From positions 248,001 through 312,000 of the forward strand of contig JAHBXN010000003.1 in the NCBI GenBank assembly GCA_019636475.1: a stretch of 64,000 bases of DNA, given 5' to 3'. This document shows positions 44,035 to 64,000 of the stretch, in pieces (the stretch's first letter is position 1; each line of letters begins with the position of its first letter). This stretch comes from Phycisphaerae bacterium (GTDB lineage Bacteria > Planctomycetota > Phycisphaerae > UBA1845 > UTPLA1). The notes beneath the pieces are model-generated. The model saw nothing but the letters and a program-made list of their open reading frames with translations, ran no database searches and was not told the DNA's origin. The position numbers were made by a program, and so were the translations under genes.

Positions 44035-45186
44035 CTAATCAGCAACAGGCTGTGTGGTTGTATCATCCCCGGTGGACGACTCGCGAGCTTCCGTCGATTC
44101 TGCCTTCAGCGGTTTGCCGATGTCACTCGCCCGAGCCAGTGTGAGCTTCACGTCCATTGACCGCCAGCGACGTTTGATTGTAAGTCGAACGGACTCGCCG
44201 GCCGCCCTGTCGGACAAGCGACGCTGGAGTTCCGGCATGTCCCCGGTCGGCTGCCCATCCAGTGCAACAATCTTGTCACCGGCCTTAAGCTTGGCCCTGG
44301 AAGCCGGTGATCGCCTCGCGACTTCCTTGATCCTCACGCCCTTTGATTGGGGCAGCAGATTGTCCAGGAATGGAAACAGACTCGGCTCGTCCTCCTCCAG
44401 CGCAACGCCGATCTTGCCCGGCTCAATGGACTCGCCTGCCGCCAGCCGATCAAACACGAACTCGATGCGATCACGAAGTATCGCGAAGCCGATGCCACTG
44501 TCATTCCATTCGGCGCCTGCCAGCGCCCCCCCGAGACCTGCCATCGGCACAATGAGCCCGATGACACGACCGTCGATGTCGAGCAGCGGTCCGCCATAGT
44601 TCATCGGCGAGATCTTGGCATCCGTCTGGACGGCATTCCCATTTCGACGGCCCAGCGCGCTGATGATGCCGAGCGAGATCGACGGTCTCTCCCCGCCGAG
44701 GGCCCGACCACACGCAATGCCATATTGGCCGACACGAAGCTCGGCGCGTCCAGACCATTCAGCGGGTTTCAAACCGTCCGCGTCAACCTTCAACAGAGCG
44801 ATCCGACGAATGTGATCACGCCCGAGCAGTTTTGCCACCATCCGACGACCGTCGTGCAGCGTCACGGTGATGATCGATGGATCTCTCGCAAAATTGAAGC
44901 TGCTGGAGAGGATGTAGCCGTCGCTTGACCAGATCAGCCCGGTCGACGGTCCATCTGCAAGACGGAACGACTCCTCCAGGATGCGCCCCGGTCCACCCTC
45001 GACGACAGGCTGTGCGCCGCCGATCGTCTCAATCATCACGATCGACGGTGCGACGCTCTCGACTGCCGCGCGAACCACCGCCGCGCGAGCCCGCTCCAGT
45101 TCGTACGGATCAGGACCGTCTTTTGCCCGCTCGTCAGAATTCAACAGAGCGATACAGACTAGGGCAACGCCAAGCGTTGGGGTCAT
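44035..45186 (-). CDS. HtrA-like protein without catalytic triad, with PDZ domain (paralog 3)
   Basis: A 383-residue exported trypsin-fold protein with a PDZ domain (about 275-345, KEVARRSPASRAKLKAGDK). The protease fold is plain from SSDGYILSSSFNF, GRDHIRRIALLKVD and SPMNYGGPLLDIDGRVIG. However, the His is Phe97, the Asp is Arg128 and the Ser is Tyr197, so it should be inactive. A short signal-like N-terminus (LGVALVCIALL) is seen. It overlaps the gene before it by four bases (ATGA). It could act as a substrate-binding or regulatory partner of the intact protease upstream; that is inference. Confidence 0.85.
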   Translation of the reverse strand: MTPTLGVALVCIALLNSDERAKDGPDPYELERARAAVVRAAVESVAPSIVMIETIGGAQPVVEGGPGRILEESFRLADGPSTGLIWSSDGYILSSSFNFARDPSIITVTLHDGRRMVAKLLGRDHIRRIALLKVDADGLKPAEWSGRAELRVGQYGIACGRALGGERPSISLGIISALGRRNGNAVQTDAKISPMNYGGPLLDIDGRVIGLIVPMAGLGGALAGAEWNDSGIGFAILRDRIEFVFDRLAAGESIEPGKIGVALEEDEPSLFPFLDNLLPQSKGVRIKEVARRSPASRAKLKAGDKIVALDGQPTGDMPELQRRLSDRAAGESVRLTIKRRWRSMDVKLTLARASDIGKPLKAESTEARESSTGDDTTTQPVAD

Positions 45187-46244
45187 TCTTTCGCTCCAAC
45201 AACGAAGTCAATCCGCAACAACTGCGAGCCTCGCTTCACCACAATCTGCACGGGCTGTCCTGGCGTCAGACGCAATACGAGCGCATCAAAGTCCCCCGCA
45301 TCCGCAATACGCTTTCCGTTGACCGAGAGAATCAAGTCATCCTTCTTGACGCCCGCCTCAGCCGCAGGCGAGCCGTCAGCAACCCGCTCCACATAAGCCG
45401 TCACCTGCCGAAATCCAAGTCTGGACAACTTGATTCCCAGGAACGGTTCTCGCCCGCCTTTGGGATCCATCGAGGGTAGCGTGGTGGGCTGCGCCGCATC
45501 GCCGCCGAGAAACGCGAGCAGTTCCTCCGAGGGCAGCGCATAGTTCAACCGCGTGTTGGTCGCCGAAGCCTCAACGATCACTCCGATCATACCGACGCAT
45601 CGACCCTCAATGTCGAGCAGCGGGCCGCCAGGCGCGCCCGGGTTCGCCGTGATCGCATCGTACACAAGAACCGGTCCGCGATAGTCGAATTCTTGTGCCA
45701 GCCGGTTGGCATCAAGCGTCGTCCGCATCGAAAGGATGCCTCGCGTAACCGACACTGGCTCATTGCCGTCCGCAACCCTGAACCAGTTACCCATTGCAAT
45801 GATGCTATCGCCCGGCTCGATCGTCGTGCTCGATTCCACCGATATAAAGGGAAGATTCTCCGCCTCGATCTTCAACTCGGCGAGTTGCCGACCTTCGTCC
45901 ACTCGCTTGACGACAGCCTCAAAACGACGCCCATCCGAAAGCACCGCGCGAAGCGATTGGCCGGACAACAGAAGCGATTTGGTCGTCAGAATCCGGCCGT
46001 CCGACGAGATAAGAAAACCGGTGCCATAACCGTGAACTCGGCCGATCTTGCCGCCATAGAGCTTTACCACGGCGGATTCCGCAGCCCGAATCGCTTTCGC
46101 GGCCGTATTCGGCGCGATCGTCGGCAGAATGCCCGCCTGGGTTCGGTCCGCCACGACGGCAGCCAACGGCCGATCCATCATTCCGACGGCTAAACCCGCC
46201 AGCATCAGAACCCGCACGCGCGATTTGAAGTGTGTCCGGGTCAT
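45183..46244 (-). CDS. HtrA-like protein without catalytic triad, with PDZ domain (paralog 2)
   Basis: A 353-residue exported trypsin-fold protein with a C-terminal PDZ domain (VERVADGSPAAEAGVKKDDLILSV, about 270-340). The positions of the triad have changed: Ser90 for His (TTKSLLL), Gln120 for Asp (EGRQLAELKI) and Pro205 for Ser (NPGAPGGPL). The surrounding fold, including GTGFLISSDGRIL and GGPLLDIEGRCVGMIG, is intact. It overlaps both neighbours by ATGA, so all three proteins are likely made together. A signal peptide (VLMLAGLAVGMM) is visible. Confidence 0.86.
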   Translation of the reverse strand: MTRTHFKSRVRVLMLAGLAVGMMDRPLAAVVADRTQAGILPTIAPNTAAKAIRAAESAVVKLYGGKIGRVHGYGTGFLISSDGRILTTKSLLLSGQSLRAVLSDGRRFEAVVKRVDEGRQLAELKIEAENLPFISVESSTTIEPGDSIIAMGNWFRVADGNEPVSVTRGILSMRTTLDANRLAQEFDYRGPVLVYDAITANPGAPGGPLLDIEGRCVGMIGVIVEASATNTRLNYALPSEELLAFLGGDAAQPTTLPSMDPKGGREPFLGIKLSRLGFRQVTAYVERVADGSPAAEAGVKKDDLILSVNGKRIADAGDFDALVLRLTPGQPVQIVVKRGSQLLRIDFVVGAKE

Positions 46245-47947
46245 CCCTTCGGCACCACAAGATCGAATTCGTCGATCGAATAAAGGCGTTCATCCTGATA
46301 CGTCATCCGGCGGTACGGCCATCGAATGCGGCCCACGCGGCGCCAGTCGTCGTAGCGATATTGCGCGCGCATGCCGGTCAGTGAATCCTTGAACTCCAGC
46401 CGGAGCAGTTCGCCTGTGTCATCGTCGAACGCAGCTTGATAGCTGATGCCCGACTCGATCGATTCCTCGATGACCACCGCAATGCGTCCATCGATTTCGT
46501 CGGCCGCGATCACCCTACACGCGCCGTCAGCCGACGGATCTTCTTCAGCCATCCACCGCCATCGAATTGCTCGTTCAATCTCAGCCGGGGTCATCGTTGC
46601 CGAGGGTGCCGAAACGCTGGCTCGAATTTCAGTATTTTCGAACGTCTTCACAGTCGGCATCCCACCATCGACAACCGCGCGACGACCGCTCATTTCGATC
46701 GCAGTGACTCTGTTTATTGATGCCAATCCACCCAAGGCCGTATGAAATCTGCTCCGAGCGCGGCGCACAGCCCGCCGGTTGGCAGAATCCATCAGCCGGT
46801 GCTTTTCAAACGGATTGCTCCCGCCGAAAAGCCCCGCTTCCCCCTGTGGCTGCTTCGGCAAAGGCAGATCCTCCAGACGGAACCGGATCGTCTGAATGAC
46901 ACCTTCGCGGCAATACGCCACATCGACCGGCCAGTTCGCCGGGAAAATCCCGAGATGCGAAATGAACTGATTGGTACTGGTGACCGGCCGGGACACAAAA
47001 CTCACGATCTCGTCGCCGAGTCGAAGGCCGAGCTTGTAAGGCGGCGAATCCTCCAGGATTTGATTCACGACAACCTTTCGGCCCCGATCAAATACCGTGA
47101 AGCCGGCCGTCGCATGCTTCGCTGTGATGCCCGCGCGCAACATTGGGATGAAACGCTTGATCTGATTGATCGAAATTGCATACCCAACCCCAACGTTCAC
47201 ACGACTTCTTTCCTCGATGGAGACCCGGCCGTTGATTCCGACCAAGCGCCCCCCCAGGTCAAATAGTGGACCGCCTGAATTTCCCGGGTTGATGGAGGTA
47301 TCGACTTGAATGCAATCGGTGTATCGAAGCGCGCGTCCCTGTTCACCGGCACCCGACTGATACCGATGAAGGCCGGCCACAATGCCGAGCGTCACTGTGG
47401 GTGCGTAGTCCTCCGCCAGTAGAAACGGATTGCCCATCGCCAGGGTGTAATCTCCGACTTGAAGTTGATCCGAATCCCCCAGCTCTGCGACCGCAAAGGG
47501 CTCGTCGCGAACCACCTTGAACATCGCAACATCACCGGTCACATCCACTCCGAGCACTTCAATCGGATAGATTCGCCCGTCGCTCAGGCCCGCATCGCCC
47601 ACGCGATCTTCCAGCATGGATGCAATCACGTGAAAATTTGTCAGTCCGTAGCCTTCGGCATCGATGATCACGCCCGAGCCGCCGCCCGCCCGATTGCCTC
47701 GATTGAAAAGACATGCGACGGTCGGTTCGAGTCGATGAATCACTTCAATTCGTGCATGCTCATACGCCCTCACACGGGCCAGCGCGGCGGGATCAGCCGC
47801 CGTGCGCCCGACAGTGCCCAGATCGACCGATCCAACGGCATCTTCGCTGTCCGCCCACACCGAACCGCTTAAAATTGCCGTCGCCGCGCAGCCAATGAGC
47901 GTGATCAGCAGGGTTCGAGTCAACGGGCTGGCAGTTCCTTGTTTCAT
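46241..47947 (-). CDS. Intact HtrA/DegP-like serine protease with PDZ and C-terminal extension (paralog 1)
   Basis: A 568-residue exported protease with a signal peptide (LLITLIGCAATAIL). The catalytic triad is complete: His106 (LTNFHVI), Asp139 (TGDVAMFKV) and Ser224 (NPGNSGGPL). A PDZ region follows (VVNQILEDSPPYKLGLRLGDEIVSF, about 310-380), then about 190 residues without known family (RWRWMAEEDPSADGAC, AAFDDDTGELLRLEF). HtrA proteases degrade misfolded envelope proteins. ATG 47947 is preferred over a TTG at 47980. It heads the three-gene overlapping set and follows the NPCBM gene with 60 bases between. Confidence 0.9.
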   Translation of the reverse strand: MKQGTASPLTRTLLITLIGCAATAILSGSVWADSEDAVGSVDLGTVGRTAADPAALARVRAYEHARIEVIHRLEPTVACLFNRGNRAGGGSGVIIDAEGYGLTNFHVIASMLEDRVGDAGLSDGRIYPIEVLGVDVTGDVAMFKVVRDEPFAVAELGDSDQLQVGDYTLAMGNPFLLAEDYAPTVTLGIVAGLHRYQSGAGEQGRALRYTDCIQVDTSINPGNSGGPLFDLGGRLVGINGRVSIEERSRVNVGVGYAISINQIKRFIPMLRAGITAKHATAGFTVFDRGRKVVVNQILEDSPPYKLGLRLGDEIVSFVSRPVTSTNQFISHLGIFPANWPVDVAYCREGVIQTIRFRLEDLPLPKQPQGEAGLFGGSNPFEKHRLMDSANRRAVRRARSRFHTALGGLASINRVTAIEMSGRRAVVDGGMPTVKTFENTEIRASVSAPSATMTPAEIERAIRWRWMAEEDPSADGACRVIAADEIDGRIAVVIEESIESGISYQAAFDDDTGELLRLEFKDSLTGMRAQYRYDDWRRVGRIRWPYRRMTYQDERLYSIDEFDLVVPKG

Positions 47948-48006: not shown

Positions 48007-49293
48007 CTATTGTTTGCTCGCTCGTGATGGCCGCACGAGCATGGCATTGGCCCAGACCGCATGATCCGCCAGATCGAGGTTGTCTGCTTCCTCGCAGAGC
48101 AGGATCAGTGTCTTTGCGTCGGAAACATCCACTGAAATCAAGGCCGGCGCAGCCCCGCCACGCTGTACGCTCGATTCGAACAGGAGTTTGTCATCCGCGA
48201 ACACCCGAAACACCACGCTCCCTGCATCGCCGGTCGAATCGTCGATCCCGACGACTGCGGAGAAACGTTCAAACTGACCATCAAGCTCAAACATCATGCG
48301 ATTTTTCGCATGAACTCCGATCCCTTTGCCGTAGACCTTGCCGCCCAGCCGAATCGGCTTGCCTGTCACGGTCGCGTTCATTCGCGGCTTCCAATCGGCG
48401 CCGGGCATCGATTGCTGCTCAAATCGACTTGGCGTCAGATCCGAAAGGAACTTGACTCGATCGCTTTGAAGGTCGACGCTCCGAATGACGCGCCACGGAA
48501 ACAGAGCGGTTCCGAAGACCGTGCAATCAAATGCCATGGCCTCGGCATCCGCAGAGACAATCCTACCGCTGAATCGACCGCCATCACTCGTGATGAGCGC
48601 TACCGGCGAAGGGGCCGGCGATGAGGCCGGCGCGCCGAATACGACGCCATAGGCCTGCCCAAAGTCGCCCGATCGAAGCTTGCCGGAGAAGGAGAACTCC
48701 CAGCCCGCGGCAGTCAGTTTCTCGAGCGAACCTTGCACCGCAACCGGCTTGCCGCCCTGAATCAAAACCAGCGTATCGCGTCCAGCCTGCCGGCTCCGCA
48801 GGCGTGCGGCGAAATCCTCTCGCATTTCAACGGCAGCATTCGAATCAAATACGATACCCGAGAGTGCCGCAAACGCGACATCTACAGGCCGTTCCAGTCC
48901 CAGATCAACTCGGACACAATTCAGCGAGTTCGGCGGTTCATGGGCTGGCGTGCCGCGAAAAAAGCCGCCGCTGCCCGAGTGGAATTCAAAACGAGTGGCG
49001 TCAGAAAGCGGGACCGTGCCTCTCGTCTCGCCGGACTCCGGTGCGATTCGCATCACGTCGGCCAGCGGGATTGATACCTCGCGCCCGTCCGCCTCCCCGG
49101 CAATGACCGAGTTGGAAATTCGCGAGAGCGTAAGGAGCATCTGATCGCCATCTACACGATGGATCCGAAGCTGACGACGAACCACCTCCGGCTGTACGCC
49201 CGGAGTTGCCCCGGTCGGACCATCGGCGCGGGCTCTGACAGCGCCCATGATTGCAAGCAGAACAACGGCCCAAAGCGGCACCGGCGCGCCCAT
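48007..49293 (-). CDS. Exported NPCBM-domain protein
   Basis: A 428-residue protein. The signal peptide is VPLWAVVLLAIMGAVRARA. The C-terminus (about 310-420) is an NPCBM (novel putative carbohydrate-binding module) domain: KPIRLGGKVYGKGIGVHAKN, FERFSAVVGIDDSTG and FRVFADDKLLFES. The N-terminal half shows beta-rich repeats (SRISNSVIAGEADGREVSIPL, VALITSDGGRFSGRIVS) that resemble small beta-sandwich segments; the family is not named. ATG 49293 is chosen because a start at 49485 would overlap the upstream gene. Carbohydrate binding is inferred from the domain name only. Confidence 0.84.
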   Translation of the reverse strand: MGAPVPLWAVVLLAIMGAVRARADGPTGATPGVQPEVVRRQLRIHRVDGDQMLLTLSRISNSVIAGEADGREVSIPLADVMRIAPESGETRGTVPLSDATRFEFHSGSGGFFRGTPAHEPPNSLNCVRVDLGLERPVDVAFAALSGIVFDSNAAVEMREDFAARLRSRQAGRDTLVLIQGGKPVAVQGSLEKLTAAGWEFSFSGKLRSGDFGQAYGVVFGAPASSPAPSPVALITSDGGRFSGRIVSADAEAMAFDCTVFGTALFPWRVIRSVDLQSDRVKFLSDLTPSRFEQQSMPGADWKPRMNATVTGKPIRLGGKVYGKGIGVHAKNRMMFELDGQFERFSAVVGIDDSTGDAGSVVFRVFADDKLLFESSVQRGGAAPALISVDVSDAKTLILLCEEADNLDLADHAVWANAMLVRPSRASKQ

Positions 49294-49361
49294 GCGACCG
49301 CTGCTTCCGTCGCAGTGCACCGCGCGCTTTGACTGCGGCCTCACTTTGAACGAAGCACGAG

Positions 49362-50456
49362 TCAAGGTGACTCCTTTGAAAGCTCTCGATAGTACTGCTC
49401 CAGCAACTCGCGATACTGACTGGGAAACTGCTTTTGGAGCGTTTGTAGAATCTGCTCGCGCTCGCGCGGCGGCATTTTCCCCCACGTTTCGCCTGGTTTC
49501 GCGGTAGACGCGCGAAGCCGCGTCTCGCCCGGTGTCCCCGTCGGGAGTGTCGATTCCGTGGCGCCACCACCCGGATTCTTACCGCTTGATCGGCCACGGC
49601 CGCCGCGGCCCTCTCCCTCTCCGTTCTGGTTTGACTGCTCCTGCTGTTCAGCTTCCTCGATCAACGCCGCTAACAATTCGACGGCCTCATCCTGCCGATT
49701 GAGAGTCGTGTCATCGGTGTAGCCGGTCTTCAATTTGCGTTTCGCAAAGGTCAGCAGATCACGAACATCCCCAATCTGGCCCGGCGCACGTCGGGAAAGT
49801 TCCGTCATGATCTGCACGGCCGTTGTCCGCAGCCGCTCGGGAGCGTTCGGATAATTCTTCAGAAAATCCTCAAACGTCCCGTATGCGAGTTCATACTCCA
49901 GATTGTGAACCTGGCAATATCCGAGCATGAATCGGAAGTGATCAGATGCGGTCGTGTACTTCTCGATCGGCCGATGACGGTCGCGGACGTCACACAACAT
50001 CGCCTCGCATCGATCGATCAGTTCGAGATCGATCAGCGCCGTTGCACCGAGGTTTGCGGATGCCGTCGCAAGGTACGGATCATCCGACTGCGCCAGCCGC
50101 TCGAAGACAACCGCCGCATCGTTCGACTTGTCCGCATCGAGCAGCGCGAGCCCCTCCTTGAATTCAGGCGACAGGACTGCATAAGCCAGATTGATGAAAT
50201 CAACCAGCTCGCTCTCGGGCATTTTCTCACGCTGAGTTGTTACGAACCTCACGGCATCTGGCGAGAGCGTTGGGGCCGATGCGATGTATTTGAGGAATCC
50301 GGCGATGACTTCAGAGGCGGGCAACGGCGGCGGAGCGGCCTCGCCGATTCGCTTTGGCGGCGCCATCCAGTCATATCCCGGAACCGGCGGCAGCGGTTTC
50401 TTGGGTGGAAGCGCTGGCACTGAAGCAAATAGCCAGACTGCCATCACGGTCATCAT
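49362..50456 (-). CDS. Exported alpha-helical protein of unknown function
   Basis: A 364-residue protein with a short signal peptide, then Pro-rich segment (PPKKPLPPVPGYDWMAPPKR), TPR-like helices (NLAYAVLSPEFKEGLALLDADKSNDAAVVFERLAQ and HFRFMLGYCQVHNLEYELAYGTFEDFL as separated parts) and a low-complexity, basic and Gly-rich linker (GEGRGGRGRSSGKNPGGG). The C-terminus MPPREREQILQTLQKQFPSQ is a short helical motif seen in planctomycetal proteins of this locus type. GGAGG sits eight bases before ATG 50456. It follows the coiled-coil gene by 24 bases. Confidence 0.72.
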   Translation of the reverse strand: MMTVMAVWLFASVPALPPKKPLPPVPGYDWMAPPKRIGEAAPPPLPASEVIAGFLKYIASAPTLSPDAVRFVTTQREKMPESELVDFINLAYAVLSPEFKEGLALLDADKSNDAAVVFERLAQSDDPYLATASANLGATALIDLELIDRCEAMLCDVRDRHRPIEKYTTASDHFRFMLGYCQVHNLEYELAYGTFEDFLKNYPNAPERLRTTAVQIMTELSRRAPGQIGDVRDLLTFAKRKLKTGYTDDTTLNRQDEAVELLAALIEEAEQQEQSNQNGEGEGRGGRGRSSGKNPGGGATESTLPTGTPGETRLRASTAKPGETWGKMPPREREQILQTLQKQFPSQYRELLEQYYRELSKESP

Positions 50457-50480
50457 CTTGCAGACCTCCGTCACCGACGC

Positions 50481-52535
50481 CTATTGTGCCCGGCGCAAGG
50501 ATTCATGCATCGCCTTGGCCATGTCCGCCACCGATTGCTGCTTCTCAGCGAGCCGCCTCAGCCGCTTCGCAAGGTCGTCGGCGGGAATCTCGGACCGCTC
50601 GCGGTCGGCCTTCAGTTGTTGTGTCGCCCGGTTCACCCGAATCTGGCACGATCGCAATAGTTTCAATTCGGCCGAGCCGGGCAGCAGCGGCTGACTGCCG
50701 TCGCCGCTCTGACCGGAATCAGCCTGATCGGCAAGTTCCTCCTGCTTGCGTTCGATCGCTTCGATCATGTCACGCAGCATGGATTCGATGTCGGATTGTG
50801 TTATGCGAACGGATTCGCCCGCGTCGGCCGCCGCAAGCCGGTCGGCCACGTCCCGGGCATCGTCACGAATTTCTTCAATCATGGTTGGCAGGATCACTGT
50901 CGAACCGTCTTCCTTCAGGAGCAACAGCGTTTCTTCAGCTTGATCTCCAACCCACCGCTGCCGTTGTGATACATCCGCCAGTTCCAACTGGTCGGACCGC
51001 TTCCAGTTTGCCGCGCCGAGTTCGCCCAGCCGCGTCGTCACTTTGTTGCACTCCAGTTGACGGCTAAGCATCGCTCTGAACCGAGACTCCAGCGCCGCGA
51101 GCATCTCCTCCTGTTGCTCCTTGCGAAGCTGATCCATGCGATCTTCCAACTCCTCCTGAGCCTTCTTCAATTTCTCAACGGCCTTTTCCTGCTGTTCGAT
51201 CGCCTTGTCGGCGTTCTTTTTCTCAAGCTGATCGGCCGCGTCGCGCTGAAACGGAACCGCCTGCTGCACATCCTGCTGCCCCGGCGTGGCTTCATTCTCT
51301 CCGCCGCCATTGTCCGAATCGCCCGATTCCCGTTCCGGTGATTCGCCGGACTCCCGGCCGTCCCGACCCTGCTGACCGGCTCCGCTTTCCGCGGCCGCGC
51401 CCTTGCCACTCATTTGTTCGCCGAGTTCGGCCGTCTTCTCGGCAGTCTGGCGCTGCTCTTCCGCCTGCTCCTCCAATTGCAGCTTCCGGCGAATCTGATC
51501 GGCTCGTTGTGTCAGTTCCTCTCGTGCCGCGTTCAATGCCTCTTCCGCTTTTGATTGGGACGCCTGCGCCTCCGTTCGCGAGTTGCCACGCATAGACTTT
51601 TCAGCGGATTCCATCGCGTCGGACGCCCGTCCAAGCGATTCCGCAGCTTTCGACGCTGATGGTTCGTTTGCCGGAAAATCGTTGGAAGAACTAGCGGATT
51701 CGCTGGTTTCCGTGTCTCCCGGACGGTCCGCGCCACTGCCGACGGAGTCCACTTCCGCCAAAGACGCAACTGCCTCCGCGACTGCCTCCGTCTCGCCACG
51801 AAGCCTGGCCTGCTCCATTGCCTCGGTCGCCAGATCGCCTTCGGCTGCGGTTCGCGCGCTCGAGTCGCGTTGTCTTTTCAGCAAGTCGTCAATGCGCTGA
51901 GCGGCCGCTTCCAGTGCTTCGGCTCGTCGCTGCGCCGCGCGGACTGATTCGGCCTTTTGAATCGCCTCTTCCTGTTCCTTGATCAGCGATTCCAGCGACC
52001 GCCGGATCGCCTCCACTCGCTCGATGTCATCCTTGCGTTCATCCAGTTGACTCGGCTCCTCAACCAGCTCTTTCAAGAGCGACTGAAGCTTTGATATGAC
52101 CTCCTGTTGATCATTCGCGGCATCGGAAAGCTGGTTACTCTCGAGCTCTTTCACAATTTTCGCAATCGTGTCGCGAACCTGATCACCGCGCAGTCGACCG
52201 AGTCCGTCCAATAGGCGCGCGGCTTTATCCGGTTCGGACTTACGAAGTGCCTGGCTCAATTGGAACATCCGATCTTCAAGTCGAGTGACGCGGTCACGAA
52301 CGAGCGACTGTCTCTCAGCGAGTGACCCGGCCACGGGTTGCGATGCCGGTGCATCATCTCCGGCCGCCGGCGAAATCGGAGCGGCCAGCACCGCGAAGAC
52401 TATCAGCACTGACGACACGGCACACCCTGACCAGGACCGCACATCAGGCAACCATGCGTTGCTCCTTTGCGACCACCACTCGGCGCGCCTCAAGCGCTCC
52501 CCCTCCACCATCGTTTCGATGCCCCGCGAGATCAT
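50481..52535 (-). CDS. Exported long coiled-coil protein
   Basis: A 684-residue protein with a membrane segment near residues 38-57 (CAVSSVLIVFAVLAAPISPA), then long charged heptad-rich regions (RVTRLEDRMFQLSQALRKS, AEALEAAAQRIDDLLKRQRD, EKLKKAQEELEDRMDQLRKE) and a central acidic Ser/Gly-rich stretch (GQQGRDGRESGESPERESGD). It is likely an elongated envelope scaffold. No enzyme motif is seen. AAGGA precedes ATG 52535 by six bases, and it starts two bases after the stop of the DUF4175-like gene, so the two are coupled. Confidence 0.78.
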   Translation of the reverse strand: MISRGIETMVEGERLRRAEWWSQRSNAWLPDVRSWSGCAVSSVLIVFAVLAAPISPAAGDDAPASQPVAGSLAERQSLVRDRVTRLEDRMFQLSQALRKSEPDKAARLLDGLGRLRGDQVRDTIAKIVKELESNQLSDAANDQQEVISKLQSLLKELVEEPSQLDERKDDIERVEAIRRSLESLIKEQEEAIQKAESVRAAQRRAEALEAAAQRIDDLLKRQRDSSARTAAEGDLATEAMEQARLRGETEAVAEAVASLAEVDSVGSGADRPGDTETSESASSSNDFPANEPSASKAAESLGRASDAMESAEKSMRGNSRTEAQASQSKAEEALNAAREELTQRADQIRRKLQLEEQAEEQRQTAEKTAELGEQMSGKGAAAESGAGQQGRDGRESGESPERESGDSDNGGGENEATPGQQDVQQAVPFQRDAADQLEKKNADKAIEQQEKAVEKLKKAQEELEDRMDQLRKEQQEEMLAALESRFRAMLSRQLECNKVTTRLGELGAANWKRSDQLELADVSQRQRWVGDQAEETLLLLKEDGSTVILPTMIEEIRDDARDVADRLAAADAGESVRITQSDIESMLRDMIEAIERKQEELADQADSGQSGDGSQPLLPGSAELKLLRSCQIRVNRATQQLKADRERSEIPADDLAKRLRRLAEKQQSVADMAKAMHESLRRAQ

Positions 52536-52537
52536 GT

Positions 52538-54802
52538 CTATTCCTTTCCGGCCGGCAGAGTGGTCGAATGCCCCTCGCCGCCGAATAGCCGCTCAATTTC
52601 CCGATCCAGCGTGAGCTTGGTGTCCTCGTTGACCTCTTGTTGCAGCCGCACGACTTCCCGCAGCAGTGCGATTGCCTCATTGTATCCTTCCCATTTCAAC
52701 ATGTCGGCCAAAATGGTGTACATGCTTCGAATGATCCGGGTTTGTGCCGCCTCCACCGCCCTGGATGTTTCATCATCAAACGCATCTCGAAGGCGCTCGA
52801 GTAGCTCGGCAGCCTCGCCAATTTCAGACGTCGCCAGCGATCGCAACGGCGCGAGCACGCCGTTTTGCAGTCGCCGGCGCACCTGCGGAGTCGCGAGGCC
52901 GTTGATATCCAACTCGTCAAATATCTGCTGAAACTGCCTCGCAACGGTGCGAACGCGGTTGATCTGCTGCCGCTGAGTTCTCGCCTCCTGGCCATATCGA
53001 AGCGAACGCTCCGCCGATAACGCATCGGCCCCCGCGACATCGCGCAGATCCATGACGCGCCGATTTAGCTGCTCCTGCGCCTTGATGATCTGCTCGAACT
53101 CACGGCGCCACTCATTCTCCCGGCGGCCTAATTCGGCCAGTAACTCCTCCGCCGTCACGACGCGCAGCGTATAACGGACCGATTCACCCAGATTCGCTGC
53201 TGCGGCCGGGTCGGTCGCGTCAGAATGTTCGCCCGGCGTGACTGTGGCATCACGGCTCGCGTCCGGATTGGCGACCGGCGTCGGTGGCTGATAATCGCGG
53301 CCCCGCGCATACAGTGTGATCTGATCGCCTGGCGACAATGTCAACGGCGCCAGCGGAAGTTCATGCCGCACTTCGTACCGCGTCTGCCGAGCCGTGAATC
53401 GGGGTAGCGACTCCGCCGTTTCAGAATTCGAGATGTCTTTTCCATTCGGTCGCACGACTTGAACAAGTTCCACTGACTCAATGCCGAGGTTGTCCTCGCA
53501 CTCCACTCGAATCGGCAACTGTGCGCCACTCACGACCATCTCGCCGACCCCCGGCATCGTCATCCGCACTTTCGGAGGAGAATCTGCCGTCGGATTGATT
53601 GAGAAAGTCACGGGCGACCGATCGTCGAGACCATCCATATCCAGCAGATCGAAGTAATAGGTCGCGCGTCGCTCGGGCTCAAACCGCGCTTCAAGGCTTG
53701 TGCCTTCGGTCAGGTTCACCGTCGCCACCGGTTGATCATCCGAGCGGCTCTTCAATACCGCTCGCGCCAGCGGCTTGTTCGCTACGGCTTCAATCCGAAC
53801 AGCCGACCCGCGCAGCACATCCGCGGTTGACTGGCTCGCTTCCAGAACAAAAGGCGCCTGCTCCGAATAGGCCGGCGGAACAATCTCGACGCGCGCCGAG
53901 CGAATCGAAGGTCGAATCACCGCATCAACCGTGTACCATTCTGTTCGATCATCGACTCCCCATTGATCGACTACAAACCGGAATCGCATCGCCTGAGTAA
54001 GCGAGCCGAAGTCAAGAATGAAACGGTCTTCACCCAGCCGGTCCATGTCCCGTTCGCTTCGAGCGCCGGACGCCAGTTCGAATTCGGCCAGCAGCCTGCT
54101 CGGCCGGCCTTCGAGTGCTCGCGCCACGATCCGCAACTCATCGCCGATGGGCCATCGAAGGTGCCCGCTTTCGGAAAACCCTTCCGCCACAATCCGTGTT
54201 GTCACCGGCCACGGCGTATCACGAAGAAGCCAGTTCCGTTGGAGATAGACCGACATCAAACCCGGCATCAGCGAGAACGCGGCCGTCGCCGCGAGGAGCG
54301 TCGCCATCGCCAGAGCCAAGCGCCGTCGAAACTGCGTCCGCTCTAGAATTTGATCGAAGCGAATACCCTCGAAGGTTGCGAGGCTTTCGCGAAACAGCTC
54401 TGCGACCAGCGCCGGTGAATTGCGATGGGGGTTGATCGCCGACCCCGTGGCGAACGCGACCGCCGAAACTATCCGATCCGCATAGGCCCTGTGCTTCCGT
54501 TCGACAACCGCCGCCACCTCATTGACATCGATCCTCCGCCGGAACGGTCGAATCACAAGCCGCCCGAATTGGTGGACCACGACCCCGAGCACGATGGCAA
54601 GAAGCGCCACTCTCGGACCAAACCCAAGCGCCAGAATTCGATCAAGGACAAACTGCACGGTGCATAGGGCGACGAGCCCGCCGAAACAGAGCGCCGCCCC
54701 CTCAAACAGCACACGCCGTCGAATCGCAGAGCCCAGCCGATCCAGCGGCGCGACGATCTTCCGTCGAACGTTCGTGCTCAGTTGTTCGAGGCTCTCATTC
54801 AC
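52538..54802 (-). CDS. DUF4175-like large membrane protein
   Basis: A 754-residue protein. Two membrane helices near the N-terminus (LFEGAALCFGGLVALCTVQF, VALLAIVLGVVVHQFGRLVI) and one later (LALAMATLLAATAAFSLMPG, about 170-190) precede a beta-rich exterior (RVEIVPPAYSEQ, VTFSINPTADSPPKVRM, QLPIRVECEDNLGIESVELV). The C-terminal third is coiled-coil (EFEQIIKAQEQLNRRVMDLR). This domain order matches what I know of DUF4175-type proteins, whose role is unclear. It directly precedes the coiled-coil gene, and may form a complex with it. Confidence 0.8.
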   Translation of the reverse strand: MNESLEQLSTNVRRKIVAPLDRLGSAIRRRVLFEGAALCFGGLVALCTVQFVLDRILALGFGPRVALLAIVLGVVVHQFGRLVIRPFRRRIDVNEVAAVVERKHRAYADRIVSAVAFATGSAINPHRNSPALVAELFRESLATFEGIRFDQILERTQFRRRLALAMATLLAATAAFSLMPGLMSVYLQRNWLLRDTPWPVTTRIVAEGFSESGHLRWPIGDELRIVARALEGRPSRLLAEFELASGARSERDMDRLGEDRFILDFGSLTQAMRFRFVVDQWGVDDRTEWYTVDAVIRPSIRSARVEIVPPAYSEQAPFVLEASQSTADVLRGSAVRIEAVANKPLARAVLKSRSDDQPVATVNLTEGTSLEARFEPERRATYYFDLLDMDGLDDRSPVTFSINPTADSPPKVRMTMPGVGEMVVSGAQLPIRVECEDNLGIESVELVQVVRPNGKDISNSETAESLPRFTARQTRYEVRHELPLAPLTLSPGDQITLYARGRDYQPPTPVANPDASRDATVTPGEHSDATDPAAAANLGESVRYTLRVVTAEELLAELGRRENEWRREFEQIIKAQEQLNRRVMDLRDVAGADALSAERSLRYGQEARTQRQQINRVRTVARQFQQIFDELDINGLATPQVRRRLQNGVLAPLRSLATSEIGEAAELLERLRDAFDDETSRAVEAAQTRIIRSMYTILADMLKWEGYNEAIALLREVVRLQQEVNEDTKLTLDREIERLFGGEGHSTTLPAGKE

Positions 54803-54889: not shown

Positions 54890-57424
54890 TCATAGCAAAC
54901 GGGCTTTCTTTCGCAATGCCCACTCGACCAGCAGCAGACCGACCAGGACGGACATGACCGTCGAGTTATCCCACAACGGGCGCGGACGGCCGCGCACCGT
55001 GAATGTGCGGCCCATGTCCGGAAGCAGCTTTGGAAGCGAGCCTGTCTCGTCGACCTCGTAAAACCCGCTTCGCCCGCCGACCGCTGACACCAGTTCCTGT
55101 ATCGCCGACCGATCTAACGCCGTTTCTCGCAATTCAATATCCGACGGCGACACGGTGATCTCACGTTCAATCGTCCGATCGGCGTCCGATGCAGCGCCCC
55201 CGATCGAGCCGGGCAGTTTTACCGCCAACCTGTGCATGCCCACTGAGTCCGCTGCGAAGCGGCCCTCGTAAAAGCCTTCGCGACCGACAATCGGTGATAG
55301 CTCGATTGTCCGAGACGTCAGCGATGAATCTGCCGCGCCATTCACTCTTTCCGATTCGGGTGTCGTCGTGCGGCTCGATGCGGCCGACACCTCCAACTCC
55401 AGCTCCGGCACGAGCAACGGCTTGAACTGCTCATCGAGCGCGCGGAGCGTTACCACGACGGTCTCGCCCTGCTCGAATTCCTCTTTCGTCGTCAGAAGCT
55501 GACCCCGGGCGCGCCCGCCGAGAAGTTTCCCTTCGACGAGAAATCGAAGCGTCTGAATCCAGAAACGGTTGAAATGCCGCTCGTTCGCACGGCGCCATCG
55601 CCACGTTGAATTGATGCCGAGCCATGCGGTCCGCCCCGTTCCGACATACTGCGTCGCGAACAACACATGCTGTCCAAAGGCGTTTGCCATGCGTGGATTT
55701 GAGTGTCTCATCAATACGCGGGCGACTGATTTTTCGCGTCGAACCGGATAATGCCAGTAGACTTGTCCCAGAGACGACCAGATCGATCGGGTTTCCAGCG
55801 GGCTGTCGGATTGCCGCAGGATCGGATCGCCGATCGCGTCGTCGGGGATCAGAATGGGCCAGGCTCGCGATTGATAATGCCCCAGTTCGTTGATGACCAG
55901 TTCCGCCTCTGGATCGACCGCTACCGGCAACGTCTCGATCAACGATCGGAGATTCTCATTCTTCAGAAACCGGCCAGTGAACTTGTTCCCCGCCGCATAA
56001 AGAAGGCCACCGCCATAATCCGAGACATAGGCCGCAACCAAACTGCCCCAGGTCGGTCCGAACTCCGTCGGATCGCAATCCATCATGATGATTGCATCGT
56101 AAAGATTCAGTTCCTCCGGCGTCTCCGGCAATTGAGTGATCACTGAATTGCCATCACGCACCGCCTTGGAATCTGCCGACTGAAGCCAGGACGACAAATT
56201 AACCGTTGGGTCCCGCTCAAACATGCGAGAAAGAAACCGGTAGTCATAGCTCGGCGAACCGGCGATAAGCAGCACGCGCATCTGGTCGTCGAGAATCCGA
56301 ACCGCGGGTGAGAGTTCGCGCTCATTGTCGGACGTCACCGATTCGTACGCCAATGGTTCGATTCGGGCGATATAGCGCACCGTTCCGGGGTCCTTGACCT
56401 TTCGTTCAAAAACCGCCGGGGCGAACTTCCCGTCCGCGCCAGGCACGAGCGTCCGCGTTTCAACCAGTTCGCGGCTCTTGCCGTCCAGCTGCTCGAAGAG
56501 CTCCAGGCGAATTTGCTGATCATTCACGCCGCGCGCATCGACTCGCACCGTTACATCAAACGGATCGTTCTTGAACGCCGACCGCGCTGCCGCAATCTGC
56601 ACTACCCGTGCATTGACCGGCTCCGCCGGATCGCCAATTCCCACCGCGTACAACGGAATATCGCGCCCGGCGAGAAATCGACCGACGTTGCCCGTCCACT
56701 CGCCGTGATTGAACCGGCCGTCCGTCAGGAGCACGATGCCCGCAATCGGCGCTCCCGCGCACGCATCGACCGCCCCGCGAATGGCTGCGCCGACGTCGGT
56801 CGCAGGTTCGGCCGCCGTCAGCTTCAATGCGCCGGAGGTCAGAGATTCACGCCGAGAACCGGCCGCTGCGTCTCCACCGTCGGGCTGAGCCGTCGCACGC
56901 CGAATCTCTCCGCGATAGGTCAGCGAATCTCCGAAGGAAAAGAGTTTGACCGAGTTTTCGGCGGCCAGCAGGCGCAACAGCCCCCGGCTGCCGCTCGTCA
57001 GAAGTCGCTCTCCGACCGCGCTTCTCAAAATCCCGTCGTCCGCGATCTCCCCGACCACTCGCACGACGCGACGGGCGTCAGCATCGTTTCGATACGAATC
57101 GTGCAGCGACATGCTTGCCGAGTCGTCGATCAGCACGATGGTCTGCGCATCGATTCGCCGATGTTCGTATCGAACGATGACCGGCTCGAGTCCGATTAAC
57201 CCCAGCATCAGCAACACGATCACCCGCGCCGCCGCTAGACTCCAACGCATGCCCTTCGAGAGTGTCCCACGCGCTTCGCGCCGATACATCCACCAAACGG
57301 CGTAAATCGCAAGTGCCGAGAGGATTCCGCCGATAAGCAGCGCGTTGTCCGCTGACCATCGCGCCAGTTCAATGCGCGATTCAGAAGACACCGTCGAGAC
57401 TTCCTGTGCGAACATCAATCCCAT
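54890..57424 (-). CDS. Large vWA-domain membrane protein
   Basis: An 844-residue protein with two N-terminal membrane helices (NALLIGGILSALAIYAVWWM, ARVIVLLMLGLIGLEPVIV), then a vWA domain whose metal site (MIDAS) begins VLIDDSASMSL (DxSxS). GIVLLTDGRFNHGEW and PLYAVGIGDP belong to the same fold. A central glutamine-amidotransferase-like part (RVLLIAGSPSYDYRFLSR, GGGLLYAAGNKF) and a membrane segment near the end (WDNSTVMSVLVGLLLVEWAL) complete it. Members occur beside MoxR and DUF58 genes. Function is unknown; a metal-dependent adhesion or scaffold role is inferred. Confidence 0.83.
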   Translation of the reverse strand: MGLMFAQEVSTVSSESRIELARWSADNALLIGGILSALAIYAVWWMYRREARGTLSKGMRWSLAAARVIVLLMLGLIGLEPVIVRYEHRRIDAQTIVLIDDSASMSLHDSYRNDADARRVVRVVGEIADDGILRSAVGERLLTSGSRGLLRLLAAENSVKLFSFGDSLTYRGEIRRATAQPDGGDAAAGSRRESLTSGALKLTAAEPATDVGAAIRGAVDACAGAPIAGIVLLTDGRFNHGEWTGNVGRFLAGRDIPLYAVGIGDPAEPVNARVVQIAAARSAFKNDPFDVTVRVDARGVNDQQIRLELFEQLDGKSRELVETRTLVPGADGKFAPAVFERKVKDPGTVRYIARIEPLAYESVTSDNERELSPAVRILDDQMRVLLIAGSPSYDYRFLSRMFERDPTVNLSSWLQSADSKAVRDGNSVITQLPETPEELNLYDAIIMMDCDPTEFGPTWGSLVAAYVSDYGGGLLYAAGNKFTGRFLKNENLRSLIETLPVAVDPEAELVINELGHYQSRAWPILIPDDAIGDPILRQSDSPLETRSIWSSLGQVYWHYPVRREKSVARVLMRHSNPRMANAFGQHVLFATQYVGTGRTAWLGINSTWRWRRANERHFNRFWIQTLRFLVEGKLLGGRARGQLLTTKEEFEQGETVVVTLRALDEQFKPLLVPELELEVSAASSRTTTPESERVNGAADSSLTSRTIELSPIVGREGFYEGRFAADSVGMHRLAVKLPGSIGGAASDADRTIEREITVSPSDIELRETALDRSAIQELVSAVGGRSGFYEVDETGSLPKLLPDMGRTFTVRGRPRPLWDNSTVMSVLVGLLLVEWALRKKARLL

Positions 57425-57486: not shown

Positions 57487-59853
57487 TCAACCGCGCGTCC
57501 CGAACCACCACGCCAACCCCTGTTCGAACATCAACACAATTCCCGCCGCCAGCAACAGCGGCCACCAGTATTCGATCCGACTCGTGGCGGACTGACTTTC
57601 CAGTGCCGACAGGTCGCCCACATACTCAAACGGAAGCTCTTCAACCAGAGCGGACTGTAGCTCGGACCGGCTCGCCATGCCCAGATTCGATTCGGCGGGG
57701 TCCGGATTCACTGCCGCATAATGGATCGAAGCCGGGCCACTGCCGCTCGGCGTCAGCAGAATCCGACAAAGCCCAGGCTCGTCCGTTTCGCGAAACTCGA
57801 AATTACGTCCCGATCCGGCGCTCGTGGCCGTTAGCGTGACCGCGGGCCGCATCGGATAGCTCGGCGGCTCAAGAATTGAGCGATCCTCAAATCGCCCCGC
57901 GTCCAGCTCGAACGTTACCGGCTGCCCCACCGTAACCTGGCCGGCGGCCGTCGCCGTTTTTGCACAGTACTGAACAAGTTCCAACATCATCGGCAGATAG
58001 CTGAAATTCGAGGCCCAGTCATTCCAGTCCTGGTCAACCGTCGTCGCGATAAACACCGTGATTCCGCGACCAAGGCGCCGCTGGACGATCGCCGGCGACT
58101 CATCCGGATCACTGAATCGGGCCAGAACCCGAACCGGCGAAGCCGCACCGGCTCGATCAAGTGTGCCGTCATTGGCGGATTCCTCGGTCGCCGTTGCGGT
58201 CCCGTGGACAGGTTGGCTGCTCGGCGAAGTGTCTGATTCGTCGTTTGCCGCGCTCGACAGGAAGGCTCGCACCTTCACCTGTCGAAGCAATGATGCCAGC
58301 GGCCCGTCAAACGCCCGCAGCATTGGATTGTTGACGTTCCACCGTCCGAATGTCACCGGTTCGACACCTGCCGGAGCCTGCGTCGTATCGAGCAGCCTCA
58401 CCGGCATCAACCCATCGCCACTGCGATATAGTGCGTCGTTGTAGTAATCGATATCAATCTGTGCGCCGCCGAATATCGCCAGCCCGCCGCCGCCGCGCAC
58501 ATATTCCTCCAGCATGCGCGCCGCGGATGGCGTCATCCTCGCGACATTGGCCAGCACGACGACGTGGTAGCGAGACAGATCGGCTGAGTCGAGTTCCGGC
58601 TCTTCGATGATGGTCAGGTCATTGCCGCTGGCCGCACGCCCCGCCGGGCGGAGCGCCGTCCGCAGAAGATAGACCTCGTCTCGAAAGCTGTCGCTGCTGG
58701 GCTCTCCGTTGACGATCAGAATCTGGATCGCCGGGAGCACTTCGAGCGCCACCGCCCGGCGATCGTCGATCCGAACACCGTTGCCGAATCGCTCGGCGCC
58801 AGCCAGCTCGACCTGAACGTAGTTCGCGCCATCGTTCGGAAACGTGACCTCAAAGGGTTCGCGCACCACCTGGCCGGCCGGCACGCGACCGACGATGACG
58901 GGCGGCAGCCGGCTGTCCGCAATCGAGATGTTTAACTCCACCTGCTCAATTGCGTCGGACGAATAGTTCGCGACAGCCGCCTCAAACCGCGTCGGCACGC
59001 CTGCCACCGTCTGGGGCCTGAGTGGCCTCAAATCCAGCAAGGCTGCGTTCTCCGCCGAGGCGTCGCCAACATTCACTAGAACGAGATTGATCGGGACGCC
59101 GCCACGTGACAGTGCCGTGAGCGGAGCAGTGATGTTTACAGGCTTGTCCTGGGCATCGTCCGGGGCCGGAGGCAGAATCCAGTCCACTCGCTGAAAATCG
59201 CTGATGACGTAGATGGCGTGATTCGCCTCGGTCGGCGTACGCGCGATCACATCCGCCACTGCCGCGAGCGCGACATCCATCTGCGACCGACGCGCCGAGG
59301 GTCGAGCGCCGTTCAGACGGTTTCGAAGCTGATCCAGCGAATCGTCGCTCAGGGACGCGAGCGCCACCAGAGGCTCGCGCGGAGCGCTCGTCAGATAGAG
59401 CGTCAGCGGATCCCGCGGCGATTCACTCGCAAACCACCTGGCAAGCTGCAATGCGGCATCACATGCCTGATCGAAGACTGCGCGGCTGTCCCCTGTCGAA
59501 CTTCCCCTGGACTGATAGCCCATCGAGAAAGAGTCATCCACCACGATGATGCGCTCCGTACGACCGGACGCGCCAATCATCCCCGCGACAAACCCCGGCC
59601 GCACGAACGGACGCATCATCATGAAGGCGATCAGAAAAACGGCCAGGCAACGAAGCGCGAGCAACAGCCATTGCTCCAACCGGACCCGGCGACGATTCTG
59701 CCGCTCTGCGTCCAGCAGAAAATCCATCGCCGCCCAGCGAATCCGGCGAAACCGTCGCTTTGCAAGAATATGAATCAGGATGGGGCCGGCCACTGCACCG
59801 GCGCCGGCCGCCATCGTCGGATTCATCAGGAAGCTGGACAACCACCCAATCAA
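57487..59853 (-). CDS. BatA-type vWA membrane protein
   Basis: A 788-residue protein. The N-terminal BatA signature is clear: PILIHILAKRRFRRIRWAAM and RRVRLEQWLLLALRCLAVFL, with two membrane helices. The vWA MIDAS loop follows (VVDDSFSMGYQSR). Later regions hold a GATase1-like section (GGGLAIFGGAQIDIDYYN) and a C-terminal membrane helix (WWPLLLAAGIVLMFEQGL). The Bat proteins were named for Bacteroides aerotolerance; the general role is thought to involve complexes assembled with MoxR ATPases. It overlaps nothing and lies 62 bases upstream of the second vWA gene. Confidence 0.87.
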   Translation of the reverse strand: MIGWLSSFLMNPTMAAGAGAVAGPILIHILAKRRFRRIRWAAMDFLLDAERQNRRRVRLEQWLLLALRCLAVFLIAFMMMRPFVRPGFVAGMIGASGRTERIIVVDDSFSMGYQSRGSSTGDSRAVFDQACDAALQLARWFASESPRDPLTLYLTSAPREPLVALASLSDDSLDQLRNRLNGARPSARRSQMDVALAAVADVIARTPTEANHAIYVISDFQRVDWILPPAPDDAQDKPVNITAPLTALSRGGVPINLVLVNVGDASAENAALLDLRPLRPQTVAGVPTRFEAAVANYSSDAIEQVELNISIADSRLPPVIVGRVPAGQVVREPFEVTFPNDGANYVQVELAGAERFGNGVRIDDRRAVALEVLPAIQILIVNGEPSSDSFRDEVYLLRTALRPAGRAASGNDLTIIEEPELDSADLSRYHVVVLANVARMTPSAARMLEEYVRGGGGLAIFGGAQIDIDYYNDALYRSGDGLMPVRLLDTTQAPAGVEPVTFGRWNVNNPMLRAFDGPLASLLRQVKVRAFLSSAANDESDTSPSSQPVHGTATATEESANDGTLDRAGAASPVRVLARFSDPDESPAIVQRRLGRGITVFIATTVDQDWNDWASNFSYLPMMLELVQYCAKTATAAGQVTVGQPVTFELDAGRFEDRSILEPPSYPMRPAVTLTATSAGSGRNFEFRETDEPGLCRILLTPSGSGPASIHYAAVNPDPAESNLGMASRSELQSALVEELPFEYVGDLSALESQSATSRIEYWWPLLLAAGIVLMFEQGLAWWFGTRG

Positions 59854-59956: not shown

Positions 59957-60943
59957 TCAATTTTTCGTCTTCATCCGCTTCATCCGCGCCGCGAGGAATC
60001 CGCGCAGCGCCACATCCAGGGGATCCATCGTCGAGAGTTCCACGAATTCGATTCTGCTGTTCGTACAGCGTGACCGCAATCGTGAAATATGGGCATCAAG
60101 CGCCGACAAATAGCCGCGTCGAAGTGTCTGCGGATCGACGAGCGTATGCAGGTCGGGGGATTCAATGCCCTCGAACAGCGTGTTATCCTGAAAGGGAAAC
60201 TCCCTTTCGTCATAATCGAGGACATGAAGGACCAGCACTTCATGATTTGCGAACCGAATGCGCTCCAGCGCCGACGCGATGTCCTCGGCATCAGCCAGAA
60301 GGTCGGAAATGACGATGACCAGACTTCGACGAGCCAGCTTTCCAGTGAGATCGGCGAACAGCCGTTTTCCGTTGGTCCCGTGCTCGAGCCGCGCACGGTC
60401 GATTTGATCGATCAACTCTCTGAGGTGCACCTGATTCGAAAGTGCCGGCATGTTGACACGTACTTCATCGTCAAACAGAACGAGTCCCGCGGCATCCTGC
60501 TGATGCACCATCAGGTATCCGAGCGAGGCCGCCAGCGTCGCGGCATACTCAAACTTGGTCATTCGGCCTTCCGACAGGTCCTGCTCCGGATAACGCATTG
60601 AAGCCGAGCAATCGAGCAGAAGGTGCGCGCGCAGGTTCGTTTCCTCTTCGTATTGCTTCACGAAGAACCGATCAGAGCGGCCGTACACGCGCCAGTCGAG
60701 ATGCCGCAGGTCGTCGCCGGGAGAGTATTCCTTGTACTGCGCGAATTCGACTGAATAGCCCTGATACGGGCTGCGATGCATGCCGCTGATGAAACCTTCC
60801 ACCACATGGCGCGCGCGAAGCTCCAGATCGCCGATCCTCGCAAGCACATCAGGTCGAAGGTATTTCAGGGCGGTCGTTTCGTTCATTGTCTCACTCGCGG
60901 CTTCAACGTCGTCTGCATCCCATGTCGAATCCGACTGAGGCAT
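59957..60943 (-). CDS. DUF58-domain protein
   Basis: A 328-residue DUF58 protein with a vWA-like fold. Signatures are RHVVEGFISGMHRSPYQGYS, EYSPGDDLRHLDWRVYGRSD and the MIDAS-like LLDCSASMRYPEQ. DUF58 proteins are nearly always encoded beside MoxR AAA ATPases, as here, and are thought to be their substrate or partner in the cytoplasm. The start may be ATG 60943 or 60886. The gene lies 45 bases downstream of moxR. Confidence 0.92.
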   Translation of the reverse strand: MPQSDSTWDADDVEAASETMNETTALKYLRPDVLARIGDLELRARHVVEGFISGMHRSPYQGYSVEFAQYKEYSPGDDLRHLDWRVYGRSDRFFVKQYEEETNLRAHLLLDCSASMRYPEQDLSEGRMTKFEYAATLAASLGYLMVHQQDAAGLVLFDDEVRVNMPALSNQVHLRELIDQIDRARLEHGTNGKRLFADLTGKLARRSLVIVISDLLADAEDIASALERIRFANHEVLVLHVLDYDEREFPFQDNTLFEGIESPDLHTLVDPQTLRRGYLSALDAHISRLRSRCTNSRIEFVELSTMDPLDVALRGFLAARMKRMKTKN

Positions 60944-62050: not shown

Positions 62051-62198
62051 GCCAGTCCTTCTTTCTATGGATGTATTCCATCGCTGCCGCATCCGCGCGC
62101 CGCCAATGAAAAATCTCTGAACAGCCATTTCGCATTGAAGCGTATGTCAGGAGGATCGCTGGACGCACGGTATTAACAGCAAGCCGATCTGCGGTGTT

Positions 62199-63275: not shown

Positions 63276-64000
63276 TGATCTGCCCCATTCCGGGTTTCGT
63301 CCTTCGCCTTCGGAGCCATCATGCCGGCATCGCTCAGCACGAAAAATCCTTCCGGCGCGACACACACAATTCGATCATTCAACACAATGACATCAATCAA
63401 ACGGCGAGAGGCATTCAACGGCGACGTGGCCGCCAGACGCTCGTCACCCAACTGGCCCTCCGCAAATTCGTACGGCCTGATTGACAACAGTCGCCCTGTT
63501 GATTTATCGATGAGCTCCAGTTTGGGAGGCAGCATCGGATCGAACTCCGGCACGAACCGCTGAATCCGACGACCACCGAGGTCCGGCGGCATCGCATTTC
63601 GGACAGCGGCGACGAAATGTGGCGATGCCCGCAACATCTGACGGCTGATCGTCGCAAGCGGCCCCAGGTCACGCCGCCAGGGCAATTCGGCCGGATCGAG
63701 CGGAAACGACTCGAGCACAAATTCCGGTGGGCTCTCATCCTTTCGGGTGAACAATACCAACCGGCCGCCACCCGAACCCTGAGTCGAAGCGTCAAGCACC
63801 GCGTCGATCGGCGGCATGGACAATCCGGCTGTCGACCAGCGACGGGCAATTTCGCCCGTTTCAACCCGCACGAGCGCGAAACCGGCCGTCCCATGCGAAA
63901 CGCCCGCCCACTCGTGACCAAGTTCGAATACACCATTGATCATGTCGCCGAATTCGCGATCCGGCCAAACGCTCTTGCCGGTCTTTGAATCGACACCGAT
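63272..64000 (-). CDS. PQQ-like beta-propeller protein, C-terminal part
   Basis: A frame open to the right edge of the window, so the N-terminus is missing; it continues 19 codons beyond the first internal ATG at 63943. The first visible residues GVDSKTGKSVWPDREFG are a typical propeller repeat (DxxTGxxxW). Later parts (LELIDKSTGRLLSIRPYEF, RLIDVIVLNDRIVCVAPEGFFVL) show the same kind of blade pattern. It ends four bases inside the cyclase-fold gene and is the first gene seen of the long minus-strand locus. Enzymatic activity is not implied. Confidence 0.8.
   Translation of the reverse strand: MGVDSKTGKSVWPDREFGDMINGVFELGHEWAGVSHGTAGFALVRVETGEIARRWSTAGLSMPPIDAVLDASTQGSGGGRLVLFTRKDESPPEFVLESFPLDPAELPWRRDLGPLATISRQMLRASPHFVAAVRNAMPPDLGGRRIQRFVPEFDPMLPPKLELIDKSTGRLLSIRPYEFAEGQLGDERLAATSPLNASRRLIDVIVLNDRIVCVAPEGFFVLSDAGMMAPKAKDETRNGADQ

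Follow-up and report, generated by a model that had tools for sequence, protein, structure and literature searches.

HtrA proteases have been studied mostly as homotrimers in which every subunit is able to cut. Among the closest described systems, MamO is required for MamE-dependent proteolysis without having a catalytic triad of its own (PMC4794232), and the inactive domain of AtDeg7 is described in a review as involved in trimerization (PMC3473262). In Clostridioides difficile, two inactive Csp subtilisins, CspA and CspC, act with the active CspB, one of them being fused to it (PMC12880746), and Arabidopsis Deg5 and Deg8 both reside in the thylakoid lumen, and activity of Deg5 is so far undetected (PMC3640471). 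Here we consider three adjoining HtrA-type genes in a 64,000-nucleotide stretch of a Phycisphaerae bacterium genome (GenBank assembly GCA_019636475.1, contig JAHBXN010000003.1, positions 248,001 to 312,000 of the forward strand; hereafter the window), one of which retains the His-Asp-Ser triad and two of which have lost all of it. In window coordinates, the genes and their parts are:

46241-47947, minus strand: gene 1 (P0003, 568 amino acids), an active HtrA with His106, Asp139 and Ser224, one PDZ domain and a predicted C-terminal LolA/LolB-like domain
46244-46837, minus strand: the LolA/LolB-like domain of gene 1, about residues 371-568, assigned from an AlphaFold2 (AF2) model and structure comparison
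46241-46244, minus strand: four-base ATGA overlap of genes 1 and 2, read on the coding strand
45183-46244, minus strand: gene 2 (P0002, 353 amino acids), a pseudoprotease HtrA with PDZ domain and Ser90, Gln120 and Pro205 at the triad places
45183-45186, minus strand: four-base ATGA overlap of genes 2 and 3, read on the coding strand
44035-45186, minus strand: gene 3 (P0001, 383 amino acids), a pseudoprotease HtrA with PDZ domain and Phe97, Arg128 and Tyr197 at the triad places

All three proteins have the HtrA/Deg (S1C) architecture, a chymotrypsin-like protease domain followed by a PDZ domain, with a full-length Trypsin_2 match and a PDZ match in each, all above the Pfam gathering cut-offs. 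The original prediction, made from the letters of this DNA, had held that the folds and PDZ domains of the two dead copies are intact, and these matches bear it out; the positions, strand and triad-place residues that it gave for the three genes, and the overlaps by which it joined them, were confirmed. That prediction is correct, and the finding is larger, in that the operon, the depth of conservation and the C-terminal domain of gene 1 come on top of it. A signal-peptide-like N-terminus, read by eye, is found on each of the three proteins and suggests that they are exported.

The loss of the triad was examined with profiles of genes 2 and 3, built from relatives and aligned to solved DegP/DegQ structures, which they match over about 270-330 residues. 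Because these alignments set S90, Q120 and P205 of gene 2, and F97, R128 and Y197 of gene 3, opposite the His, Asp and Ser of the solved proteins, no hidden triad is restored in the dead copies, and we reject the idea that a shifted alignment might regain one. The genome as a whole holds 13 Trypsin_2 matches, ten of them outside the trio; five of these ten align across the triad and all five keep His-Asp-Ser (the other five align too poorly to judge), so that loss in the trio goes beyond chance. Elsewhere in this genome, one locus (L159, C7:116500-121800) has two Trypsin_2 matches about 2 kb apart, in a frame of 754 amino acids with His-Asp-Ser and a frame of 309 amino acids that matches only domain positions 33-144; the latter may be another degenerate copy.

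The same three-gene set with the same dead positions was sought in relatives, and the dead positions recur. We examined 83 stretches, the window's own copy included (51 in a first set and 32 more), 68 of which carry all three genes on one stretch; for the triad counts, the own copy was left out and rows below 100 bits were dropped. Gene 1 has His-Asp-Ser in 71 of 71 relatives. The full triad occurs in none of 73 gene-2 and none of 77 gene-3 relatives, which makes genes 2 and 3 pseudoprotease homologues: gene 2 has lost its serine in 73 of 73, its aspartate in 67 and its histidine in 72, and gene 3 has lost both histidine and serine in 77 of 77 and aspartate in 75. The single histidine exception in gene 2 (L119) reads as H in the hidden Markov model alignment and as N in the MAFFT alignment, with serine lost in both. 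The first set of stretches already gave this pattern, with the triad of gene 1 kept, the serine of gene 2 lost, and the histidine and serine of gene 3 lost. The replacement residues are themselves conserved, mostly S-Q-(P/A) in gene 2 and F-(K/R)-Y in gene 3, and the nucleophile loop of gene 3 mostly reads SPxN(Y/F)GG, the usual glycine preceding Asn being replaced as well. Both dead genes have invariant motifs beyond the triad, and their frames are open in nearly all relatives.

At wider range, 57 of 298 genomes at class level (a count by eye that includes the own genome) match gene 3 at 366 bits or more, with the next best match at 232 bits, and a match at E ≤ 1e-62 was found in 51 of 294 genomes at phylum level, again including the own; a scan of named genomes found the trio at two planctomycete loci only (L118 and L119). 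The phylum-level gene-3 frames are often 640-770 amino acids long. At those two named loci (L118, 294-2330; L119, 4359-6467), gene 3 has a second PDZ domain and a C-terminal extension, the latter in L119 giving weak alpha/beta-hydrolase matches to Peptidase_S9 and DLH (each E 0.001, below cut-off). A diverged trio, also with one active and two inactive members, is seen in L149 and L150 (G093 and G061), with DGE/DKE and VDY/TDY at the triad places; these stretches are without the conserved operon neighbours.

A tree was built from 108 protease-plus-PDZ cores, comprising 33 per gene from 34 chosen stretches of the 83 and nine other HtrAs. Genes 1, 2 and 3 are each set apart by a single branch (support 100/100, 100/98 and 100/99, respectively); as each gene forms its own clade, duplication and loss of activity are most likely older than the split of the planctomycete lineages sampled. 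The gene-2 copies that still have the aspartate (6 of 73) suggest that the triad was lost stepwise. Within the window's family (13 genomes), pairwise identity averages 0.647 in gene 1, 0.540 in gene 2 and 0.624 in gene 3. The ratio of nonsynonymous to synonymous substitution rates (dN/dS), computed for pairs of close relatives picked by kinship, ranges from 0.027 to 0.172 with YN00, which gave a value in 13 of 24 comparisons, and dead and active genes overlap in this range; NG86 ratios are all below 0.3. By these sequence comparisons, all three genes are under purifying selection, and since the ratios are low in dead and active genes alike, they are signs of use, not decay.

The three genes also keep together. 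Among 60 close relatives searched along with the own genome, the genome sets of genes 1, 2 and 3 are identical, all three occurring in 43 and none in 17 (counts uncorrected for kinship); the weakest gene-2 orthologue (G049), at 115 bits, stands little above the best non-orthologue (105.5 bits) but was confirmed by profile. In five genomes (G003, G027, G029, G042 and G058) the members lie on different contigs yet all are present, the split in G042 being possibly a contig break. A single open frame spans genes 1 and 2 in 13 stretches, which favours physical association of their products, and no fusion of genes 2 and 3 was found. In most of these fusions the LolA/LolB-like domain is absent and the gene-2 domain follows the PDZ domain through a short linker, replaced by a long insert in L088 and L090. 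The original prediction had taken the trio for a translation-coupled set. At unfused junctions the ATGA overlap is found in 25 of 59 cases between genes 1 and 2 and in 29 of 69 between genes 2 and 3; translational coupling in this exact form, present at both junctions of the window, is thus common but not general among relatives.

The last 200 or so residues of gene 1 add a further domain. AF2 modelled it with a predicted local distance difference test score (pLDDT) of 91.4 and a predicted template modelling score (pTM) of 0.85 from 25 sequences, and the predicted model has the half-barrel fold of LolA, LolB and RseB, the last being a described sensor for the periplasmic stress response. The top seven Foldseek rows have E-values from 6.5e-6 to 6.3e-5, among them a DUF1329 protein (6.5e-6), LolA3 (1.7e-5) and 3bk5 (1.9e-5), and VIA-align gave Z 13.1 for 3bk5 (root-mean-square deviation 3.5 over 162 residues), 11.1 for LolA3 and 6.7 for RseB. 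A PDB profile search with the tail returned nothing convincing (best E 0.041, a designed SH3), and Pfam gave no match above cut-off, DUF4292 appearing weakly in 7 of 25 sequences (best E 0.001); because the sequence searches gave nothing convincing, the LolA/LolB-like assignment rests on the predicted fold. On that model, the ligand of the tail is probably a lipid, a lipoprotein or some other hydrophobic molecule of the envelope, and a sensor for hydrophobic ligands or lipoproteins carried on an HtrA is a plausible reading, a shared fold being no proof of function.

The genes upstream of the trio in the window, from the nearest outwards, are:

48007-49485, minus strand: NPCBM-domain protein (start codon uncertain), the next gene upstream and a conserved neighbour
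49362-50474, minus strand: TPR-type protein, conserved neighbour
50481-52535, minus strand: coiled-coil-like protein (judged by eye), conserved neighbour
52538-54802, minus strand: large protein with a weak Big_7 match, conserved neighbour
54890-57424, minus strand: VWA-like protein (weak VWA_2 match), conserved neighbour
57487-59853, minus strand: BatA N-terminal/VWA protein
59957-60943, minus strand: DUF58 protein
60989-62128, minus strand: MoxR-type AAA+ ATPase (AAA_3)
62199-63365, minus strand: squalene-cyclase-like repeat protein (SQHop_cyclase match), first in the conserved order

This conserved MoxR-DUF58-BatA operon, on the same strand, often has the trio at its 3' end. The full 12-gene order is found in 21 of 51 stretches; in the rest it is interrupted by the end of a contig or the genes are dispersed. 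Distant families share much of this order. At a threshold of at least 412 bits, 41 of the 43 relatives that carry the trio also have the VWA-like gene, as do 5 of the 17 that lack the trio, which portrays the trio as a unit that comes and goes and is dispensable to the MoxR part. The MoxR gene, of which there are several copies per genome, does not discriminate between trio-bearing and trio-less relatives.

Taken together, we lean towards the explanation, which we regard as rather probable, that the trio constitutes one envelope HtrA system, in which gene 1 cuts, genes 2 and 3 co-assemble with it or regulate it, and the whole works with the MoxR/VWA module. Gene 1 would be the catalytic subunit, its LolA/LolB-like tail serving a hydrophobic envelope ligand. 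Genes 2 and 3 would be pseudoproteases that keep the chymotrypsin fold and the PDZ domain, with proline or alanine, or tyrosine or phenylalanine, at the place of the nucleophile, and most likely assemble with gene 1 into a mixed HtrA oligomer, the simplest case being a trimer with one of each. There they may set assembly, use their PDZ domains to bind or present substrate tails, and act as an allosteric switch for the one active subunit, and the mixed complex could act together with the MoxR/VWA envelope module encoded upstream. The original prediction had likewise proposed a mixed complex with regulatory pseudo-proteases; that proposal is supported in part, in that neither a restored triad nor decay of the downstream genes was found and 13 fusions were. 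From conservation, co-occurrence and fusion we infer a physical complex, along with its stoichiometry, regulatory effect and ligand. A stricter version seems to us doubtful: an obligate 1:1:1 heterotrimer, present planctomycete-wide, whose one active site is controlled allosterically by the two dead subunits, whose catalytic subunit carries a sensor for lipids or lipoproteins, and which is coupled to a MoxR-VWA machine.

Several observations weigh against the mixed system. The all-or-none counts come from relatives whose kinship was left uncorrected. The five trio-less relatives with the VWA-like gene (G017, G024, G026, G028 and G051) indicate that the MoxR/VWA module can exist without the trio. 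An AF2 model of a natural fusion of genes 1 and 2 reached a pLDDT of 71.1 and a pTM of 0.66 from seven sequences and did not fix the packing of the two parts. In one relative (G009; L110, 1460-2704, minus strand) an in-frame TAG splits gene 3 in an otherwise intact operon. Finally, MamO activates MamE through its TauE domain, the protease domain alone being insufficient (PMC4794232), and because the TauE domain mediates activation, the precedent is no proof of contact between protease domains.

The main rival to a mixed oligomer is a sensor pair made up of genes 2 and 3: as a pseudoprotease heterodimer, they would detect an envelope signal and license gene 1 from outside its oligomer, as CspC:CspA do for CspB. 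We consider it unlikely but worth weighing, since the Csp case suggests it: that locus follows the same logic, with one active and two inactive members, the active one being joined in a fusion with one of the others (PMC12880746), and all-or-none co-occurrence fits a sensor pair equally well. The fusions join gene 1 to gene 2 in 13 cases and never gene 2 to gene 3, which argues against such a pair, but weakly, because the Csp fusion also joins an active and an inactive member. Slightly less likely again is that genes 2 and 3 share only the operon with gene 1 and are independent scaffolds, binding PDZ ligands, other ligands or metal, for the MoxR/VWA module or other envelope clients. Their place within the conserved MoxR-DUF58-BatA operon would agree with this, as would the C-terminal extension that gene 3 gained in some lineages and the repurposing of the MamO protease domain for metal binding (PMC4794232). 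Scaffolds for that module are harder to reconcile with a VWA-like gene that occurs without the trio in five relatives while the three HtrA genes are never apart in presence, and with the 13 fusions to gene 1.

Two further explanations were weighed for genes 2 and 3. That they are still hydrolases to some degree, by way of a non-standard catalytic site, might be hinted at by the aspartate kept in 6 of 73 gene-2 and 2 of 77 gene-3 relatives; it is very improbable given that serine is kept in none of them and histidine in no gene 3, and that the nucleophile loop of gene 3 is altered. That the two genes are functionless, decaying duplicates has next to no probability in our view. The loss of every triad residue and the TAG of G009 would suit decay, but we reject it on phylum-wide conservation, open frames, low dN/dS, conserved replacements and the invariant motifs outside the triad. 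Decay of the downstream genes in relatives was looked for and does not occur as a pattern: the trio is retained whole or lost whole, and the exception is G009. That stop codon, the sole break examined (a few other class-level gene-3 rows count stops within the matched span), may be an assembly error or a recent loss.

If the mixed HtrA system is real, the passage of allosteric signals between HtrA subunits could be tested directly in a set that nature has fixed with two dead members. The trio would also open a way into envelope quality control in planctomycetes, bacteria with an unusual cell envelope. Thanks to the fusions and the all-or-none distribution, the idea of a mixed complex can be put to the test. 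Among the titles and abstract openings returned by searches of open-access full text, none describes a planctomycete HtrA trio, and the main text of a paper on the essential genes of Planctopirus limnophila (PMC10632474), in its available part, does not mention HtrA, DegP or MoxR.

Among described systems, MamO/MamE resembles the trio in that an inactive HtrA paralogue is retained beside an active one and encoded together with it. It differs in having one pseudoprotease where the trio has two, and in the TauE domain and metal-binding di-histidine site of MamO and its setting in a magnetosome gene island; the trio belongs to a planctomycete MoxR/VWA operon, and neither of its dead copies keeps any of the three triad residues. 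No TauE-like domain was found in P0001 or P0002, in which Trypsin_2 and PDZ-type domains are the only Pfam matches above cut-off, and the NCBIfam equivalogs fall far short of their cut-offs of 800 (MamE 66.9-99 bits; MamO 45.2 bits, in P0003 only). Plant Deg7, a clade III Deg/HtrA, carries an active and a degenerate HtrA protease domain in the same chain, a layout absent from the window and approached by the fusions in 13 related stretches; it differs in its four PDZ domains, whereas here the domains are usually encoded by separate genes, a third, dead HtrA is present and the setting is a bacterial envelope. The Csp locus likewise has one active and two inactive proteases, with the active one fused to an inactive one. 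Its proteins are subtilisin-like and serve spore germination. They are not known to have PDZ domains or a MoxR operon. Deg5 and Deg8 are alike in that two HtrA proteins share one compartment; they differ in that Deg5 is a trimer and Deg8 a hexamer, and because their serines were mutated for crystallization (PMC3640471), natural triads are present in both. MoxR-VWA-centred ternary systems share the adjoining MoxR ATPase and VWA proteins, but their third component is VMAP, iSTAND or FtsH, and the available part of the account mentions neither HtrA nor BatA. Pseudo-HtrAs beside active ones are thus known already; as far as our searches of the open-access literature show, what is new is a planctomycete-wide set with two pseudoproteases, its all-or-none distribution, its MoxR/VWA operon and the LolA/LolB-like tail of its active member.

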